This document shows, in pieces, positions 12,495 through 49,688 of a DNA stretch of 64,000 nucleotides. The stretch comes from Flavivirga jejuensis. Lineage in GTDB: Bacteria; Bacteroidota; Bacteroidia; Flavobacteriales; Flavobacteriaceae. The notes under the pieces were generated by a model. The model searched no databases. It was not told where the DNA came from and saw only the letters and a program-made list of their open reading frames with translations. The stretch lies in assembly GCF_030540765.1 (NCBI RefSeq), contig NZ_JAUOEL010000003.1, positions 496,001 to 560,000 of the forward strand, in the 5' to 3' direction. The number at the start of each line of letters is the position of its first letter. The stretch's first letter is position 1. A program made the translations under genes and the position numbers.

Positions 12495-13850
12495 TTAATA
12501 ATGAAATTCTTCACTTTCTTTTCTAAAAGGATATCCTTTTACTAGTAATGGTGCTTTTGTTAAAGCTGTAAATACTATAAATATGAATAACCCTGCAAAT
12601 AGTAATATTGAGCTTATTTCTGGAATTCCTATAAACCATCTATCTCCAACAGTTGCTGGCATAATCATATTGAAAACATCAATATAATGTCCTGCTAATA
12701 TCACTAATCCTGCCATAACAACAAACCAAGGAATACGTTTGTAATCGGCATTCATTAGCATTAATATTGGGAATACAAAGTTCATAACGACCATCCCTAA
12801 GAATGGTAATTGATAATCCTCGAAACGTGTTACGAAATAAGTTACTTCTTCTGGAATGTTTGAGTACCAAATAAGCATGAATTGTGAGAACCATAAGTAC
12901 GTCCAGAAAATACTGAATGCAAACATAAATTTAGCAACATCATGTAAATGATTTTCGTTTACAAACTCTAGTTGTCCTTTTGTCTTTAAATACAAAGTGA
13001 TTAAACTTAATACGGTTATTCCACTTACAAACATACTAGCAAACACATACCATCCAAACAATGTTGAGAACCAGTGTGGGTCTACACTCATAATCCAATC
13101 CCAAGACATCATAGACTCAGTATATATGAAGAATACTAAAAATCCTGCTGTTATACGGAATGACTTTTTAAAGTTACTCTTATCTTCTGCTGTATCTTGA
13201 GCAATTGAAAACTTACGAGAGAAATGACGGTATAAACTCCATCCTCCTATAAATATAAGTGCACGAATTAAAAACCCCGTTTTATTCAACCAACCTGATT
13301 TTCCATCTACTAATTTATCATAATCTGCATGATCTGGATTTGTTATGTTTTCATTCATCCAAATAAAAATATGATCTCCTGAGAACATTGCTATAGCTAC
13401 CACTATTAAAGCACCTGGCAATAAATAAGCAGTCATACCTTCCATGACTCTAAATAATACTGGAGACCATCCTGCTTGAGATGCAATTTGAATCGCATAA
13501 AAGGCTAAAATTCCTAAAGCAATCATCATAAAGAAAAAGGCTGCTACGTATAAAGCAGACCATGGTCTGTTATGTATTTGGTGTTGTACGTGTTTTGCAT
13601 GTTCATCACCGTGATGTGCATCGACAGCATGTGCTGCTTCCCCGTGTCCTTTTTTCGCATGTGTATCTGCTACAGCATGTGTTGCTTCTTCTGCATGACC
13701 ACCTCCATGATGAGATGCTTCTTCAGCTAGCATTGTCTTTACTTCATCTAAAGATTTATGAGATGCCATAAAACCATATCCAACACCTAATAATCCTAAA
13801 ACCATTAGAATGATAGAAAATGTCTTTAACTTATTTGAAAATGTATACAT
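12495..13850 (-). CDS. actF: Alternative complex III subunit ActF
   Basis: 451 residues, polytopic membrane protein with about ten helices. It matches the quinol:cytochrome c oxidoreductase membrane subunit paired with ActC, and its place in the operon (after actE, before ctaC) agrees. Between helix 1 and helix 2 (about residues 40-97) lies a stretch dominated by His, Ala, Glu and Asp (for example HHGGGHAEEATHAVADTHAK) that could bind metal. The stop lies 29 bp before ctaC. Confidence 0.92.
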   Translation of the reverse strand: MYTFSNKLKTFSIILMVLGLLGVGYGFMASHKSLDEVKTMLAEEASHHGGGHAEEATHAVADTHAKKGHGEAAHAVDAHHGDEHAKHVQHQIHNRPWSALYVAAFFFMMIALGILAFYAIQIASQAGWSPVLFRVMEGMTAYLLPGALIVVAIAMFSGDHIFIWMNENITNPDHADYDKLVDGKSGWLNKTGFLIRALIFIGGWSLYRHFSRKFSIAQDTAEDKSNFKKSFRITAGFLVFFIYTESMMSWDWIMSVDPHWFSTLFGWYVFASMFVSGITVLSLITLYLKTKGQLEFVNENHLHDVAKFMFAFSIFWTYLWFSQFMLIWYSNIPEEVTYFVTRFEDYQLPFLGMVVMNFVFPILMLMNADYKRIPWFVVMAGLVILAGHYIDVFNMIMPATVGDRWFIGIPEISSILLFAGLFIFIVFTALTKAPLLVKGYPFRKESEEFHY

Positions 13851-40602: not shown

Positions 40603-43443
40603 ATGTCAGATCAAAAACGTCTTTTTTTAGTCGATGCCTATGCTTTAATATTTCGTGGTTATTATGCCTTTATTAAAAACCCGAGAATTAACTCTAAAGG
40701 CACAGACACCTCTGCTATTTTAGGATTTATGAATTCGCTTTTAGATGTTATTAAGCGTGAACGTCCCGATCATTTAGCGGTGTGTTTTGATAAAGGAGGG
40801 AGTACCGATCGTGTTGAAATGTATAAAGAATATAAAGCGAATAGGGACGCAACTCCCGAGGCTATTAAAATTGCTATTCCATACATTTATAGCATACTTG
40901 AAGCCATGCATATTCCTATTATGGTTAAGGAAGGTTATGAAGCTGATGATGTTATTGGAACACTTTCTAAACAAGCCGAAAAAGAAGGTTATAAAACCTT
41001 TATGGTAACACCTGATAAAGATTTTGCTCAATTGGTTTCTGAAAACATTTTTATGTACCGTCCTGTTTTTGGAGGCGGTTACGAAACTTGGGGCATTCCA
41101 GAAGTTCAAAAGAAATTTGAAGTTACAGATCCCTTGCAAGTCATCGACTTTTTAGGAATGATGGGAGATTCTAGTGATAATATCCCTGGGCTTCCTGGCG
41201 TTGGAGAAAAAACAGCTAAAAAGTTTTTAGCGCAATATGGTAGTATGGAGAATCTTTTAGCAAACACGCATGAGCTTAAAGGTAAAATGAAAGAGAAGAT
41301 TGAAGCGAATGGCGACTTAGGAATCCTTTCAAAAAAACTGGCCACTATCATGCTAGATGTTCCTGTTGCATTTAATGAGAAAGATTTTGAAATGTCTCAA
41401 CCAGATATTCCTAAGGTGAGTGAAATTTTTCAAGAATTAGAATTTAGACGTTTAATTGATAATTTTAATAAAACATTTGCTACCAGTAGTGAAGCACTGC
41501 AAACTGACGCCTCATCAACTACAAAAGCGACACCAAAAGAACAAGCCTCTGCAGGGGCAGGTCAGTTTTCTTTATTTGGAGGCGATCCTTCAACTGCTAC
41601 AAATACCGAAACTGAAACAGAATATACTCGAAAAACAGCCGAAACCACCTCTCATTTTTACCAAAGTGTCGATTCTGGAATCGCCACAAAACTCTTCATT
41701 AAAAATTTAATGAATCAAACTTCGGTGTGTTTTGATACTGAAACTACAGGATTAAATCCTATTACCGCAGAACTAGTTGGTATTGCTTTTTCATGGGAAG
41801 TTGGTAAAGGCTTTTATTTACCATTTCCTGAAGATAAAACAGAAGCACAAGCACTTATTGAACAATTACGTCCGTTTTTTGAAAGTGAAACGATTCAGAA
41901 AATAGGTCAGAATTTAAAATATGATATTAAAGTTCTGGGTAAATACCATATTGAAGTTAGAGGTAAATTATTTGATACCATGTTGGCACATTATCTCATA
42001 AACCCAGATATGCGACATAATATGGATGTGCTAGCGGAAACATATTTGAATTACACACCAATTTCTATTGAATCGCTTATTGGGAAAAAGGGAAAAAACC
42101 AATTATCGATGCGTGAAGTTCCTTTAGAAAAACAAACCGAATACGCGGTTGAAGATTCTGATATTACACTTCAATTAAAAGAACATTTTGAAAAAGAGTT
42201 AGGCGAAGCCAATACTCAAAAACTCTTCGATGATATTGAAGTCCCATTACTTCGTGTACTGGCTGCTATGGAATTAGAAGGCATCAATTTAGATAAAAAT
42301 TTCTTGAATTCTCTTTCGGAAGAATTAAACAAAGATATTACTTCATTAGAAACTAAAATTTATGAGGTCGCTGGTGAGGAATTCAATATAGCATCACCAA
42401 AGCAACTTGGGATTATACTTTTTGAAAAATTAAAACTTGTAGACAAACCTAAGAAAACCAAAACAGGTCAATATGCAACCTCCGAAGATATTCTATCCTA
42501 TTTAGCAAAAGAGCATGATATTATTCAAAATATTTTAGATTATAGAGGTTTGGCTAAACTTAAAAGCACCTATGTGGATGCTTTACCAAGTCAGGTTGAA
42601 GAGTCAACAGGTCGTGTACACACCGATTATATGCAAACTGTTGCAGCTACAGGACGGTTAAGCAGTAACAATCCTAATCTTCAAAATATTCCTATTCGTA
42701 CCGAGCGTGGTAGACAGGTAAGAAAGGCTTTTATTCCGCGAAGCGAAAATTACACCCTTTTAGCTGCCGATTATTCTCAAATAGAACTTCGTATTATTGC
42801 TGCTTTAAGCGAGGAAGAAACTATGATTTCTGCATTTAAAAACGGAGAAGATATTCACGCATCTACAGCTTCAAAAGTATTTAATGTGCCTTTAAATGAA
42901 GTGACTCGCGAACAACGTAGTAATGCTAAAACAGTCAATTTTGGTATTATTTATGGCGTTTCTGCCTTTGGATTAAGTAATCAAACAGATTTATCGCGAA
43001 GCGAATCTAAAGAGCTCATCGATACGTATTATGAAACCTACCCTAAACTTAGAAGCTTTATTAGCGAACAAGTTGATTTTGCTCGTGATAATGGTTATGT
43101 ACAAACCGTTTTAGGACGTCGCCGCTATTTAAAAGACATAAATTCCCGTAATGCTGTTGTTCGAGGTGCTGCCGAGCGTAATGCCGTAAATGCACCCATA
43201 CAAGGAAGTGCTGCCGATATTATTAAGATAGCTATGATTAATATTTATAATAAGCTATCTTCTGGAAATTATAAAACTAAAATGCTTTTACAAGTGCATG
43301 ATGAATTGGTTTTCGATGTGTATAAACCCGAATTAGAAACTATCAAATCTCTCGTTAAAACCGAAATGGAAAATGCTTATAAACTCGAAGTTCCTTTAGA
43401 TGTTGATTTAGATATTGGTGATAATTGGTTAGAGGCACATTAA
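40603..43443 (+). CDS. polA: DNA polymerase I
   Basis: 946 residues. The 5'-3' exonuclease domain is at about 1-290 (FLVDAYALIFRGYYAF, EADDVIGTL, GDSSDNIPGLPGVGEKTA). A linker rich in Thr and Ala (about 300-355) follows, then the 3'-5' exonuclease at about 360-540 with FDTETTGLNP, so proofreading residues are kept. The polymerase domain is at about 560-946 (ATGRLSSNNPNLQNIPIRT, DYSQIELRIIAAL, RRSNAKTVNFGIIYG-like region, QVHDELVF). It fills repair gaps and replaces RNA primers. Monocistronic. Confidence 0.98.
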   Translation: MSDQKRLFLVDAYALIFRGYYAFIKNPRINSKGTDTSAILGFMNSLLDVIKRERPDHLAVCFDKGGSTDRVEMYKEYKANRDATPEAIKIAIPYIYSILEAMHIPIMVKEGYEADDVIGTLSKQAEKEGYKTFMVTPDKDFAQLVSENIFMYRPVFGGGYETWGIPEVQKKFEVTDPLQVIDFLGMMGDSSDNIPGLPGVGEKTAKKFLAQYGSMENLLANTHELKGKMKEKIEANGDLGILSKKLATIMLDVPVAFNEKDFEMSQPDIPKVSEIFQELEFRRLIDNFNKTFATSSEALQTDASSTTKATPKEQASAGAGQFSLFGGDPSTATNTETETEYTRKTAETTSHFYQSVDSGIATKLFIKNLMNQTSVCFDTETTGLNPITAELVGIAFSWEVGKGFYLPFPEDKTEAQALIEQLRPFFESETIQKIGQNLKYDIKVLGKYHIEVRGKLFDTMLAHYLINPDMRHNMDVLAETYLNYTPISIESLIGKKGKNQLSMREVPLEKQTEYAVEDSDITLQLKEHFEKELGEANTQKLFDDIEVPLLRVLAAMELEGINLDKNFLNSLSEELNKDITSLETKIYEVAGEEFNIASPKQLGIILFEKLKLVDKPKKTKTGQYATSEDILSYLAKEHDIIQNILDYRGLAKLKSTYVDALPSQVEESTGRVHTDYMQTVAATGRLSSNNPNLQNIPIRTERGRQVRKAFIPRSENYTLLAADYSQIELRIIAALSEEETMISAFKNGEDIHASTASKVFNVPLNEVTREQRSNAKTVNFGIIYGVSAFGLSNQTDLSRSESKELIDTYYETYPKLRSFISEQVDFARDNGYVQTVLGRRRYLKDINSRNAVVRGAAERNAVNAPIQGSAADIIKIAMINIYNKLSSGNYKTKMLLQVHDELVFDVYKPELETIKSLVKTEMENAYKLEVPLDVDLDIGDNWLEAH

Positions 43444-43754: not shown

Positions 43755-43838
43755 TATTATTTTTATTAAAAGTAAGAAAAGTAAACTTACCTTAGTGGAC
43801 TAGTAACGAATAATGTTGTTTTAAATTTAAACTGAAAA

Positions 43839-43864
43839 ACACCTCTATAATCCCCTCAAGAGGA
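43839..43864 (+). repeat. C-rich repeat, outer left copy
   Basis: Matches the inner right copy (44332-44357) at 22 of 26 positions in the same orientation, and is inverted relative to the inner left copy 29 bp away. The core is ACACCTCTATAATCCCCTC. With the inner left copy it can fold into one long stem-loop. Confidence 0.7.
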
Positions 43865-43893
43865 TATTAGTTCCTAAGTTTAATTTGAGGATT

Positions 43894-43920
43894 GTCCCCT
43901 AGAGGGGACTTTAGGGGTGT
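43894..43920 (-). repeat. C-rich repeat, inner left copy
   Basis: 27 bp beginning GTCCCCTAGAGGGGAC and ending TTTAGGGGTGT. It is the reverse complement of 44332-44358 with a single mismatch and lies 20 bp before the DUF559 start. Its own half, GTCCCCTAGAGGGGAC, is a perfect palindrome. Confidence 0.9.
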
Positions 43921-43940
43921 CAGAGTACAAAATGTAAACC

Positions 43941-44306
43941 ATGAGAAATAAAGTAATCCCATACAACCCTAAATTAAAACAACTCGCAAGACAGCTTCGA
44001 AAAAACAGCACTTTACCCGAAGTTTTGTTATGGCAGAATATTAAGCAACGTGCTTACGGTGTTCAATTTCACAGACAAGTTCCTATGCTTAATTATATTG
44101 TTGATTTTTATTGTCATGAAATTGGTTTAGCTATTGAAATTGATGATAATAGTCATGACCATAGTTTTTTATACGATGCTAAAAGGCAAGGAGAATTAGA
44201 AGTTTATGATGTTAAATTTTTGAGATTTTCAAATGAAGAAGTCAAGAAAAATATGTTCAGTATTTTATTGGTTATTGAAGAGACTGTAAAAGAATTGATG
44301 GAATAA
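43941..44306 (+). CDS. DUF559 endonuclease-like protein (Vsr/PD-(D/E)xK fold)
   Basis: 121 residues. The full DUF559 pattern is intact: LARQLRKNSTLPEVLLW, FHRQVPMLNYIVDFYC, LAIEIDDNSHDHSF and YDVKFLRFSNEEV. The Asp of IVDFYC and the Glu/Asp of IEIDD are the expected metal ligands of a Vsr-like nuclease. It stands alone between inverted 27-bp C-rich repeats with no partner methylase or transposase. That layout suggests a repeat-associated selfish nuclease or a domesticated repair gene, but no function is proven for this group. The reading frame is undamaged while relics surround it. Confidence 0.9.
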   Translation: MRNKVIPYNPKLKQLARQLRKNSTLPEVLLWQNIKQRAYGVQFHRQVPMLNYIVDFYCHEIGLAIEIDDNSHDHSFLYDAKRQGELEVYDVKFLRFSNEEVKKNMFSILLVIEETVKELME

Positions 44307-44331
44307 TTATAAAAAACTAATTCTGTACAAT

Positions 44332-44358
44332 ACACCCCTAAAGTCCCCTCAAGGGGAC
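44332..44358 (+). repeat. C-rich repeat, inner right copy
   Basis: Begins ACACCCCTAAAG and ends TCCCCTCAAGGGGAC, 25 bp after the DUF559 stop. It is an inverted copy of 43894-43920 (26 of 27). Similarity continues inward: CTGTACAAT here against the complement of AGAGTACAAAAT on the left. Confidence 0.9.
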
Positions 44359-44447
44359 AATTATAACGGCATATCTATGTACGCAGCTCAAATATTATTA
44401 CTATATTAATAACTTTAGTTTGTATTTAGGTTTCATGATTTAGATTG

Positions 44448-44473
44448 CCTACTCAAGGGGATTACAGGGGTAT
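44448..44473 (-). repeat. C-rich repeat, outer right copy (degenerate)
   Basis: Its reverse complement contains TACCCCTGTAATCCCCTTG and matches the inner right copy at about 17 of 26 positions. It lies directly against the stop codon of the ygiQ relic (44476-44478). A weaker similar string lies at 47695-47715 after the intact ygiQ. Confidence 0.55.
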
Positions 44474-44475
44474 TA

Positions 44476-44565
44476 CTACCTCCGTTTCTTCTCAGATTTA
44501 AACTTAGTCTTGTTTTTACGCTGGTTAAAAGGAATAGCAGCAGCATGAAGTAATACTTTTAATAA
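44476..44565 (-). pseudogene. Relic of the ygiQ 3' end
   Basis: The minus strand reads LLKVLLHAAAIPFNQRKNKT then KFKSEKKRR and a stop. The intact protein at 47739-49688 ends with the same LLKVLL, then AIPFNRRKNKTKFRSKKKRR. Only 30 codons are left and 18 codons net are missing inside the block, but the frame is kept. It is a partial second copy of the ygiQ end, so 44476 and 47739 bracket the YceI-porin-YceI genes. Confidence 0.85.
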
Positions 44566-47738: not shown

Positions 47739-49688
47739 TCACCTACGCTTCTTCTTACTCCTAAACTTAGTCTTATTTTTACGTCGATTAAAAGGAATAG
47801 CATCATCAAATGTATGCTTCGCTTCTCCTCTAGGTTTATTTTTACGCCACTTGTCGTTTTCTGGAAGTAATACTTTTAATAAATCATGACGCCCCAATTT
47901 ATTTAAAGTCTTTTTAATCCAAGCTTTGTTTTCATCTTTATACCAAAAGAAAAAACGATGCTGCTCGTCTTTTTCTTTACGGGTTATGGGTGTGTTTACC
48001 TTTTTAAGCGTGTAAGGATGATATCCACTATAATAAATTACGGTAGCCACCGTCATAGGTGTTGGTGTAAACCCCTGTACTTGTTCCAATTGAAAACCCA
48101 TGTCTTTAGTTTCGGCAGCTAAATTCGCCATATCTTCAACTTCACACGCGGGATGGTTAGAAATAAAATAAGGAATCAATTGCAACTTCAACCCTTTTTT
48201 AATATTAATCTTATCGAAACGCTCTTTAAACTTATGAAAATAAGTAAACGATGGTTTGCGCATCAATTTTAAAACGGGATCGCTAGTATGTTCTGGTGCT
48301 ACTTTAAGTCTCCCAGACACATGCTTAGTCATCACTTCTTCAGTATAATCATCTAATTCTTTTGGGTCGGCATTTTTATTGAATTCAGGTACTAGCATAT
48401 CATGCCGAATACCACTACCAATAAACGATTTTTTAACTTTCGGATGACTATCGACTGCTTGGTATAACTCGGTTAATGGTTTATGAGAGGTATCTAAGTT
48501 ACTGCAAATAACAGGCGAAATACACGAAGGCGCTACACACTTATCACATATAGCCTGAACCTTCCCTTTCATTTTGTACATGTTCGCACTTGGACCGCCA
48601 ATATCAGATAAATACCCCTTAAAGTCTGGCATATTTGCCACAGTATCGACTTCTCGCAATACAGACTCCTGACTACGAGATGCAATAAACTTTCCTTGAT
48701 GTGCCGAAATAGTACAAAAACTACAGCCCCCAAAACACCCACGATGTATGTTAATGGAAAACTTAATCATTTCGAACGCAGGAATTGGCCCACGTTTATT
48801 ATATTTTGGATGTGGTAATCGTGTATACGGTAAATCAAAAGACGCATCAATCTCATCTTCTGTCATGGTAGGATACGGCGGATTAATCATCAGGGTTTTG
48901 TCCCCCACTTTCTGAAAAATTCGTCGTGCAGCCAATTTATTAGACTCTTGCTCTATCACTTTAAAGTTCGAAGCATATTTTTTCTTATCCTTTAAACAAA
49001 TGTCATGCGAAGCTATTTCAACATCTTCCCAATTACTATTCTTAGGTACTTTGGCATCTTTGTTTAATAGAACTGCCGTTTGTTTTATAGTTGTAATACT
49101 ACTAAAAGGCACCCCTTTTTGTAACAAACGCACCACCTCACGCAAAGGCTGTTCGCCCATACCATAAACCAACATATCTGCTTTAGAACTTTCTAAAATA
49201 GTTGGCATCAACATATCACTCCAATAATCGTAATGCGTTACACGACGCAACGACGCTTCAATCCCTCCAATTAAAACAGGAACATCAGGCCATTTTTCTT
49301 TTAAAATTTTAGAATAAACGGTAGTCGCATAATCTGGTCTGAATCCAATATCTCCATTGGGTGTATAGGCATCTTTATCTCGACGTTTTTTATTAGCATT
49401 ATAGTTACTAATCATAGGATCCATACAACCACCAGTAACTCCAAAAAATAATTTTGGAGCACCTAGCTTTACAAAATCTTGAAGATTGTCGTTAACATTG
49501 GGCTGTGGCACCACAGCAACACGCAAACCATAACTCTCTAAAATACGACCAATTACTGCAGGTCCAAACGATGGGTGATCTACATAAGCATCACCACTAA
49601 ATAAAATCACGTCTAGCTCTTCCCAACTGCGTATTTTAACCTCTTTATTTGTGGTAGGTAACCAATCTGAAAGTTTTAATTCTTGCAT
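47739..49688 (-). CDS. ygiQ: YgiQ family radical SAM protein
   Basis: 649 residues. N-terminal YgiQ domain (about 1-300, with SGDAYVDHPSFGPAVIGR and GGIEASLRRVTHYDYW), then the radical SAM core with CFGGCSFC (Cys-x3-Cys-x2-Cys) at about 320-330, further cysteines in KCVAPSCISPVIC, and a basic C-terminal tail (NRRKNKTKFRSKKKRR). It binds a 4Fe-4S cluster and SAM; the reaction is unknown. A truncated copy of its 3' end lies 3.2 kb downstream. Confidence 0.95.
   Translation of the reverse strand: MQELKLSDWLPTTNKEVKIRSWEELDVILFSGDAYVDHPSFGPAVIGRILESYGLRVAVVPQPNVNDNLQDFVKLGAPKLFFGVTGGCMDPMISNYNANKKRRDKDAYTPNGDIGFRPDYATTVYSKILKEKWPDVPVLIGGIEASLRRVTHYDYWSDMLMPTILESSKADMLVYGMGEQPLREVVRLLQKGVPFSSITTIKQTAVLLNKDAKVPKNSNWEDVEIASHDICLKDKKKYASNFKVIEQESNKLAARRIFQKVGDKTLMINPPYPTMTEDEIDASFDLPYTRLPHPKYNKRGPIPAFEMIKFSINIHRGCFGGCSFCTISAHQGKFIASRSQESVLREVDTVANMPDFKGYLSDIGGPSANMYKMKGKVQAICDKCVAPSCISPVICSNLDTSHKPLTELYQAVDSHPKVKKSFIGSGIRHDMLVPEFNKNADPKELDDYTEEVMTKHVSGRLKVAPEHTSDPVLKLMRKPSFTYFHKFKERFDKINIKKGLKLQLIPYFISNHPACEVEDMANLAAETKDMGFQLEQVQGFTPTPMTVATVIYYSGYHPYTLKKVNTPITRKEKDEQHRFFFWYKDENKAWIKKTLNKLGRHDLLKVLLPENDKWRKNKPRGEAKHTFDDAIPFNRRKNKTKFRSKKKRR

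Follow-up and report, generated by a model that had tools for sequence, protein, structure and literature searches.

Repetitive extragenic palindromic (REP) sequences are common in bacteria, and the enzymes described for REPs are HUH transposases. Cyanobacteria also carry small dispersed repeats (SDRs), which are very short and mobile-looking. Here we analyse 64,000 nucleotides of Flavivirga jejuensis (contig NZ_JAUOEL010000003.1, positions 496,001 to 560,000; hereafter the window), in which a gene for a DUF559 nuclease lies among short palindromic units. The consulted parts of PMC6006769 report a GT[AG]G foot for the REPs of REP-associated tyrosine transposases (RAYTs), some RAYT subclasses whose repeats lack GT[AG]G, and atypical structures flanking the Bacteroidetes RAYT subclass 2.6; those of PMC3733652 tie GTAG REPs to RAYTs and describe CGTC REPs with no known transposase. 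RAYTs are single-copy and largely vertical according to the consulted text of PMC6006769 and PMC3116915, the latter naming the cyanobacterial SDRs in passing.

As in the systems of RAYTs (TnpA-REP) with REPs or REP doublets forming hairpins (REPINs), the window gene has short palindromic units on both sides, arranged as inverted pairs; a separate unit family goes with each enzyme lineage; scattered intergenic copies occur (here in relatives only); and the gene appears to persist vertically. The RAYT enzyme, however, is an HUH Y1 transposase whereas the enzyme here is a PD-(D/E)XK/Vsr-like nuclease, and in place of a GT[AG]G foot the DUF559 units have a C-rich tail (e.g. ACACCCCTAAA) that copies the 5' arm of the hairpin. 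We therefore regard the locus as probably a REP-like system, in which units of about 30 nt, each a tail plus a hairpin, are served by a dedicated PD-(D/E)XK nuclease gene lying among its own units and not by an HUH transposase. Our search of the open-licence literature found no description of DUF559 paired with REP-like repeats. In the portions of the sources consulted, no repeat association is described for Vsr or other DUF559 proteins (3hrl NGO0050, YcjD and Caulobacter VsrA), and the one E. coli DUF559 copy that we checked has no flanking repeats, unlike the window DUF559. The Caulobacter DUF559/Vsr-like protein is presented, in the part consulted, as a nuclease of the repair type, with a link to DNA damage in the absence of a methylase (PMC12907096). 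Palindrome counts for Flavobacterium genomes are given in PMC12306157, in whose consulted text the words RAYT, nuclease and transposase are absent.

The nuclease gene and its repeats

The nuclease open reading frame (ORF) occupies positions 43941-44306 of the plus strand and encodes 121 aa. It matches PF04480 (DUF559) with E=1.1e-26 and 93.3 bits, against a gathering cut-off of 20.6, and apart from a sub-threshold match to MTES_1575 the protein has no other Pfam content. Neither this profile search nor the Vsr-like structure model of the protein revealed an HUH Y1 transposase between the window repeats. The predicted structure has a Vsr/homing-endonuclease fold. The residues R20, E27, F43, Q46, I53, D55, F56, L63, E66, D68, H72, D79 and R95 are invariant among 85 aligned relatives, and we infer that the window DUF559 is a Vsr/EDxHD-like PD-(D/E)XK enzyme. 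Its nearest named relative among the matches listed is from Flavivirga aquimarina (93%). It also resembles, in sequence and fold, I-Bth0305I (3r3p, PDB name 'Mobile intron protein'); that enzyme is presumably intron-encoded, whereas the window gene is free-standing among palindromic units.

The inner-left repeat (43891-43920, minus strand, hairpin then tail) is a 30-nt unit that reads ACACCCCTAAAGTCCCCTCTAGGGGACAAT on the minus strand, and the inner-right repeat (44332-44361, plus strand, tail then hairpin) reads ACACCCCTAAAGTCCCCTCAAGGGGACAAT. The two are inverted with 29 of 30 positions equal (97%), and lie 20 bp (left) and 25 bp (right) from the ORF. Repeat comparison and a degenerate pattern identified an outer-left copy (43838-43867, plus strand) with a tail followed by an imperfect hairpin of the CCTCTATAATCCCCTCAAGAGGA type, and a degenerate outer-right copy (44445-44474, minus strand, CCCCTGTAATCCCCTTGAGTAGG, hairpin then tail). 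Over a length of 19 nt the outer copies show 84% complementarity, and they fit the degenerate pattern with 0 and 3 mismatches. The outer-left and inner-left copies form a REPIN-like pair with hairpins inward and tails outward. The original prediction of an intact nuclease gene within near-perfect inverted repeats is thus confirmed in repeat length, distance and orientation, with the match extending to 30 nt, as is its oppositely oriented outer copy on each side. Its further reading, a RAYT/REP-like layout with a Vsr-like nuclease, proved to describe a real, widespread and lineage-specific arrangement and is partly supported as a whole.

The window unit ACACCCCTAAAGTCCCCTCAAGGGGACAAT consists of a C-rich tail of 11 nt, a stem of 6 bp and a loop of 4 nt, followed by AAT. 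Folding of the single-stranded DNA predicts this tail-plus-hairpin form (-5.7 kcal/mol, z -2.3). When five single units were folded (A on both strands, P, M1 and F; these types are defined below), four were predicted to form a small hairpin with a free tail, and in the predicted minimum of the F unit the tail was paired with the 3' arm. A G-quadruplex idea was dropped because the G strand of A-type units has just two G4 runs.

The exact pattern found the two inner copies in the 6.02-Mb genome of the window (33 contigs) and its control found 0. With at most 3 mismatches, the degenerate pattern found the four window sites only; its reversed control gave 2 matches, so this level is close to noise. 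Searches of Rfam (E up to 1) gave no match for the repeat units, and the PADLOC defence models gave weak matches only, the best being mREase_II (E 5e-5).

Repeats beside related nucleases

We compared the 79 best-matching DUF559 loci among the matches listed, chosen by protein similarity only, and a second set of 29 loci from a search within the window's own family. Five main unit types were recognised: A (the window type), F (CATCCCCCTAACCCCCTTTGAAGGGGGAA), M1 (ACACACCCCTAACCCCTCTCAAGAGGGGA), P (ACCCACCCCTAACCCCTCCGAGGAGGGGAAT) and M2 (AAACCCCTCCCTACCCTCCCGAGGGAGGGAATCGCAC). The original prediction had called for a search for DUF559 genes within 100 bp of such repeats, and 54 of the 79 similarity-picked loci have a typed repeat at that distance. 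Around these 79 loci the density of typed repeats is 5.2/kb near the gene, is about 100-fold lower by 0.5-1 kb, and reaches 0.01/kb at 1-2 kb and zero at 2-3 kb. Like the window's inner pair, 59 of the 80 repeats within 100 bp of a gene have their tail toward it. Further, at 70 of 106 loci (2 of the 108 were left out for short flanks) the inverted repeat common to the two flanks exceeds the 99% level of shuffles, against 14-24% of swapped pairs; the count of 70 includes non-C-rich pairs (e.g. L045, L066, L067, L092) and some near-identical loci. By identity class, the shared repeat was found at 26/36 loci (>=70%), then 6/12, 24/37, 6/10 and 8/11. DUF559 genes of the window's branch adjoin units far more often than expected by chance.

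A survey of 149 genomes of the family, drawn evenly, found the A-type pattern in 15 (reversed control 0) and a close DUF559 in 11, where close means E at most 1e-45, a cut-off fixed post hoc once the list had been seen. Each of these 11 genomes has one close gene copy, which in G054 contains a stop within the matched frame. The repeat is present in 9 of the 11 genomes as opposed to 6 of the 138 others (Fisher p 3e-9). The two genomes with the nuclease and without the exact pattern are G060, whose locus (L143) is labelled F-type, and G022, whose locus (L140) has no label. The original prediction had counted repeats peculiar to this one place as evidence against itself, and they are not: 8 of 12 genomes of the window's genus, its own included, carry copies with at most 1 mismatch, as do other genera.

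The unit type tracks the nuclease clade and not the host genus. On a nuclease tree of 96 of the 106 loci, the unit types require 10 changes, whereas shuffled labels require 35.6 on average and never as few in 200 shuffles; 21 of the 96 loci have none of the five main labels, and the tree rests on few columns and leaves many forks unresolved, with near-copies inflating the clustering. Mucilaginibacter nucleases fall into one clade with M1 units (4 labelled) and another with M2 units (3 labelled), and Flavobacterium loci have A or F units depending on the clade. Among 22 genomes searched, the M2 pattern occurs in 6, all reached via Mucilaginibacter loci, and the M1/P pattern in 14, including G168 (43 copies) and G160 (25 copies), both reached via Pontibacter loci; controls gave 0 for both patterns. 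In G178, the genome of the M1-type locus L105, a second DUF559 lies inside an M2 pair whose units face inward; the closest relative of this second protein among those aligned is L093 of the M2 clade (76%). In G168, a P-type pair encloses a further DUF559 beyond the known one. All seven inward-facing unit pairs 400-550 bp apart in the M1/P and M2 searches enclose a DUF559, although only 2 of these are new and 5 are the loci from which the patterns were taken; two unit pairs 1.4 kb apart have no DUF559 inside.

The tail copies the hairpin 5' arm across unit types: CCCCT/CCCCT, CCCTCCC/CCCTCCC in M2, and CCCTCTCCC/CCCTCTCCC in D. aetherius. In an automatic test, at least 5 nt are common to tail and arm in 108 of the 172 hairpins that lie no more than 150 bp from DUF559 (shuffled tails, 10%) and in 5 of 49 hairpins near Y1 genes, for which the distance limit was 600 bp. 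A test of 12 units chosen by eye, less reliable than the automatic one, gave 1 of 20,000 shuffles as high. Given this copying, tail and arm can compete for the 3' arm.

Units of matching type are scattered between genes in some genomes (G087, G168). Counting solitary repeats genome-wide, as the original prediction proposed, gave none in the window's own genome and scattered copies in relatives: G079, G087, G160 and G168 have 12-43 per genome. G087 (4.2 Mb) has 23 exact units and the single congener compared (G159) has 0. All 23 copies of G087, 20 of the 43 of G168 and 14 of the 25 of G160 were examined closely. The G087 copies have a 30-nt core in common, with a weak A/C-rich bias downstream, and the fetched G168 copies share AACCCACCCCTANCCCCTCCGAGGAGGGGAAT, most sharing little else. 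None of the 23 G087 units lies in an ORF of at least 100 aa (random points of the same loci, 756/1150), 3 of the 20 in G168 lie in ORFs of at least 80 aa (559/1000) and 1 of 14 lies within an ORF in G160 (263/700). Repeating the ORF test on the repeat itself instead of the locus centre gave the same outcome. In G160, 9 of the 14 copies are inverted pairs of ~85 bp, REPIN-like and within a longer repeat. G144 has 27 units, most of which form tandem arrays instead of being dispersed; its A-type arrays (L197, L198) have periods of ~141 bp and ~104 bp. In the window's genus, a miniature inverted-repeat transposable element (MITE)-like element (L256:1263-1450 and 13038-13231; L257-L265) has an A-type unit head to head with a unit of another type (AACACCCTCCTTAATCCTCCCTCGAGGGAGGAAT). 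In IMG/VR the A-type and M1-type patterns each matched 0 virus stretches and the P-type pattern 3, indicating that phages do not commonly carry the units.

Beyond Bacteroidota, we inspected 17 DUF559 loci of 32 matched records (30 from a plasmid collection, 2 from a phage collection), estimating gene ends where records had no annotation. Strong flanking inverted C-rich hairpins were found at 4 of 4 Deinococcus loci, both Pseudanabaena loci and Qipengyuania, and weak ones in Picosynechococcus. The Azospirillum, Sphingomonas, Sphingobium, Photobacterium and Shinella loci have hairpins with no clear inverted pair, and on a faecal phage contig the hairpins are accompanied by an inverted repeat that is not C-rich. 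In Pseudanabaena galeata (L405), DUF559 and its flanking hairpins lie within one annotated 4.9-kb reading frame. At two loci of other phyla (L068, L070), too, a polA-like gene (52%) lies upstream of DUF559, at a distance of 2-3 kb.

Possible mechanism and competing explanations

We propose that DUF559 cuts or spreads the units. The nuclease would recognise a unit extruded as a hairpin and nick it near the junction of tail and stem. Since the tail partly repeats the 5' arm in direct orientation, either of them could pair with the 3' arm, so that the strand, once cut, could anneal again out of register, or repair synthesis could copy the unit elsewhere. Re-pairing via the tail or copying by repair would lead to loss, inversion or new copies of units. 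Over evolutionary time the units would spread while those adjacent to the gene stay intact, persisting either as the substrate of the nuclease or as its control. Taken further, DUF559 might be a second, independently evolved class of REP-mobilising enzyme present in several phyla: a 120-aa PD-(D/E)XK nickase with no transposase, recombinase or HUH domain, which copies units of ~30 nt around genomes by cleaving them in one of their two possible folds, and which evolves together with both the tail and the stem of its unit. This wider proposal is tentative, and we lean slightly against it. A parallel partnership of this kind would give DUF559, a widespread family, a testable role and would supply a candidate enzyme for the C-rich palindromes of Bacteroidota, Deinococcota and some cyanobacteria. 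It would also mean that the linkage of a short hairpin to a single nuclease gene had more than one origin.

Several observations weigh against a REP-like system built on DUF559. No type label could be given to 26 of the 106 loci, and the DUF559 copies of E. coli KE47 and of two Synechocystis B12 plasmids have no such flanks. No solitary unit was found in the 6.02-Mb own genome with the exact and degenerate patterns, and many units of the window's genus ride in the MITE-like element of ~190 bp. Five family genomes have one unit each and no close nuclease. In G079, with 12 A-type units, the nearest DUF559 (43%) adjoins a P-type unit. Likewise, G160 has 25 P-type units and a known DUF559 (L065) that is A-type, and G176 and G177 have M2 units and a known nuclease that is M1 or unlabelled; a further DUF559 was not searched for in these three genomes. 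In G087, 9 of the 23 copies also share one of two left-flank sequences. Finally, no exact occupied/empty pair for a solitary unit was obtained from a congener stretch or the G087 flanks.

Alternatively, the cassette of unit, DUF559 and unit could be a miniature transposon that moves whole, with DUF559 as a TnsA-like cutter or a passenger and solitary units as the remnants of internal deletions. We consider this unlikely. The 11 genomes with a close DUF559 have one close gene copy each although units can be many, and 13 of the 79 loci keep a fixed place near polA or ygiQ. Most of the G087 units share ~30 nt, no gene remnants were noticed beside them, and no target-site duplication was seen at the inverted repeats, where there was no empty site to compare.

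The hairpins could instead serve to control or protect the nuclease gene, as a terminator, an operator or an mRNA hairpin; ordinary rearrangement would then have spread them, and the nuclease itself would have a housekeeping role such as Vsr-like repair. The tight spacing of units to the gene on both sides favours this explanation, as do two terminator-like sites between 43800 and 44520, where shuffles give 0.3 (the inner-right unit holds one on the minus strand, and the other is at the outer-right unit on the plus strand), and the repair-type role given to the Caulobacter DUF559/Vsr-like protein in the consulted part of PMC12907096. However, there are up to 43 copies per genome, nearly all distant from known DUF559 genes, and the repeat sequence follows the nuclease clade and not the genus, so we find this explanation doubtful, a little more so than a miniature transposon.

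A further explanation is that the units belong to HUH (RAYT) transposases of the same genomes and that DUF559 hitchhikes. Y1_Tnp matches do occur in 22 of 22 genomes searched, and some of the atypical repeats of Bacteroidetes RAYT 2.6 (PMC6006769, in the part consulted) may resemble DUF559 units. Yet in genomes with listed repeat positions, a unit lies within 700 bp of just 1 of 101 Y1 matches (those of G001, G003 and G004 left out; distance from the match start) as opposed to 10 of 17 DUF559 matches (9/9 close and 1/8 distant; distance from the match middle). Of 20 Y1 loci read (L366-L385), 11 have repeated palindromes of their own that are not C-rich, e.g. GCCAGTTTGTAACTGGC and, in Pontibacter, TTCGGATTTGTAATCCGAA; a C-rich unit is nearby at one of the 11 (L367) and at L371, and the remaining Y1 loci have no clear family. 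Some genomes thus seem to contain two parallel enzyme-repeat partnerships, and ownership of the units by HUH transposases is improbable. Least credible of all is that an old gene lies beside unrelated palindromes by chance or vertical hitchhiking. Part of Flavobacteriaceae does keep the gene at a fixed place with common neighbours, but the layout also recurs, with repeats of different sequence, in other locations and other phyla, and repeat density falls steeply with distance.

Gene place and neighbouring sequence

In the window, the DUF559 ORF lies between a gene that we take from its translation to be polA-like (40603-43443, plus strand, 946 aa) and opposite-strand genes that, read in the same way, are presumably YceI/porin-like. 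DUF559 keeps a fixed place in part of Flavobacteriaceae: at 13 of the 79 similarity-picked loci polA (8 loci) or ygiQ (7 loci, two of which also have polA) lies within 3 kb, and 8 of the 79 have a polA-like neighbour at 84-94% identity. The original prediction had named vertical inheritance at fixed places of DUF559 genes without repeats as evidence against itself. This is half borne out by the 13 loci, but a single-copy, largely vertical gene is also what the consulted text of PMC3116915 and PMC6006769 describes for RAYTs.

At the polA/ygiQ place DUF559 is oriented either way round. An intact DUF559 lies beside polA in 4 of the 12 genomes of the genus (G000, G001, G003 and G004), and in G007 (L267:716-1099) a 23-residue DUF559 relic lies beside polA between intact units. 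The two orientations and this relic agree with, and do not prove, recombination at the units. The polA stretches fetched from 6 other congeners lack DUF559, and the only sign of a typed repeat in them is one 4-mismatch match (G009); their intergenic DNA gave no match, leaving the boundaries unreadable. In G006 (L268) the contig breaks off among the repeats to the right of polA. From a congener, a 15-kb stretch that contains two solitary units gave mostly paralogous matches, its units lying in a longer repeat, and the paralogous left flanks of G087 share the left side and not clearly the right.

In two Deinococcus hpa operons, cassettes with nucleases 87.5% identical lie at different gene junctions. 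A junction occupied in one species is without a cassette in the other, with no exact empty allele, which suggests that gene and repeats can change place together. On two Deinococcus plasmids (L399, L401), the inverted repeat does not stop at the unit but continues into sequence particular to each locus, giving the impression of a cassette placed in the middle of an older palindrome. Directly right of the outer repeat of the window, ~68 bp (44478-44545) match 47741-47808 at 81%; the latter is the 3' end of the ygiQ-like gene, so that a partial duplicate of this gene adjoins the cassette.
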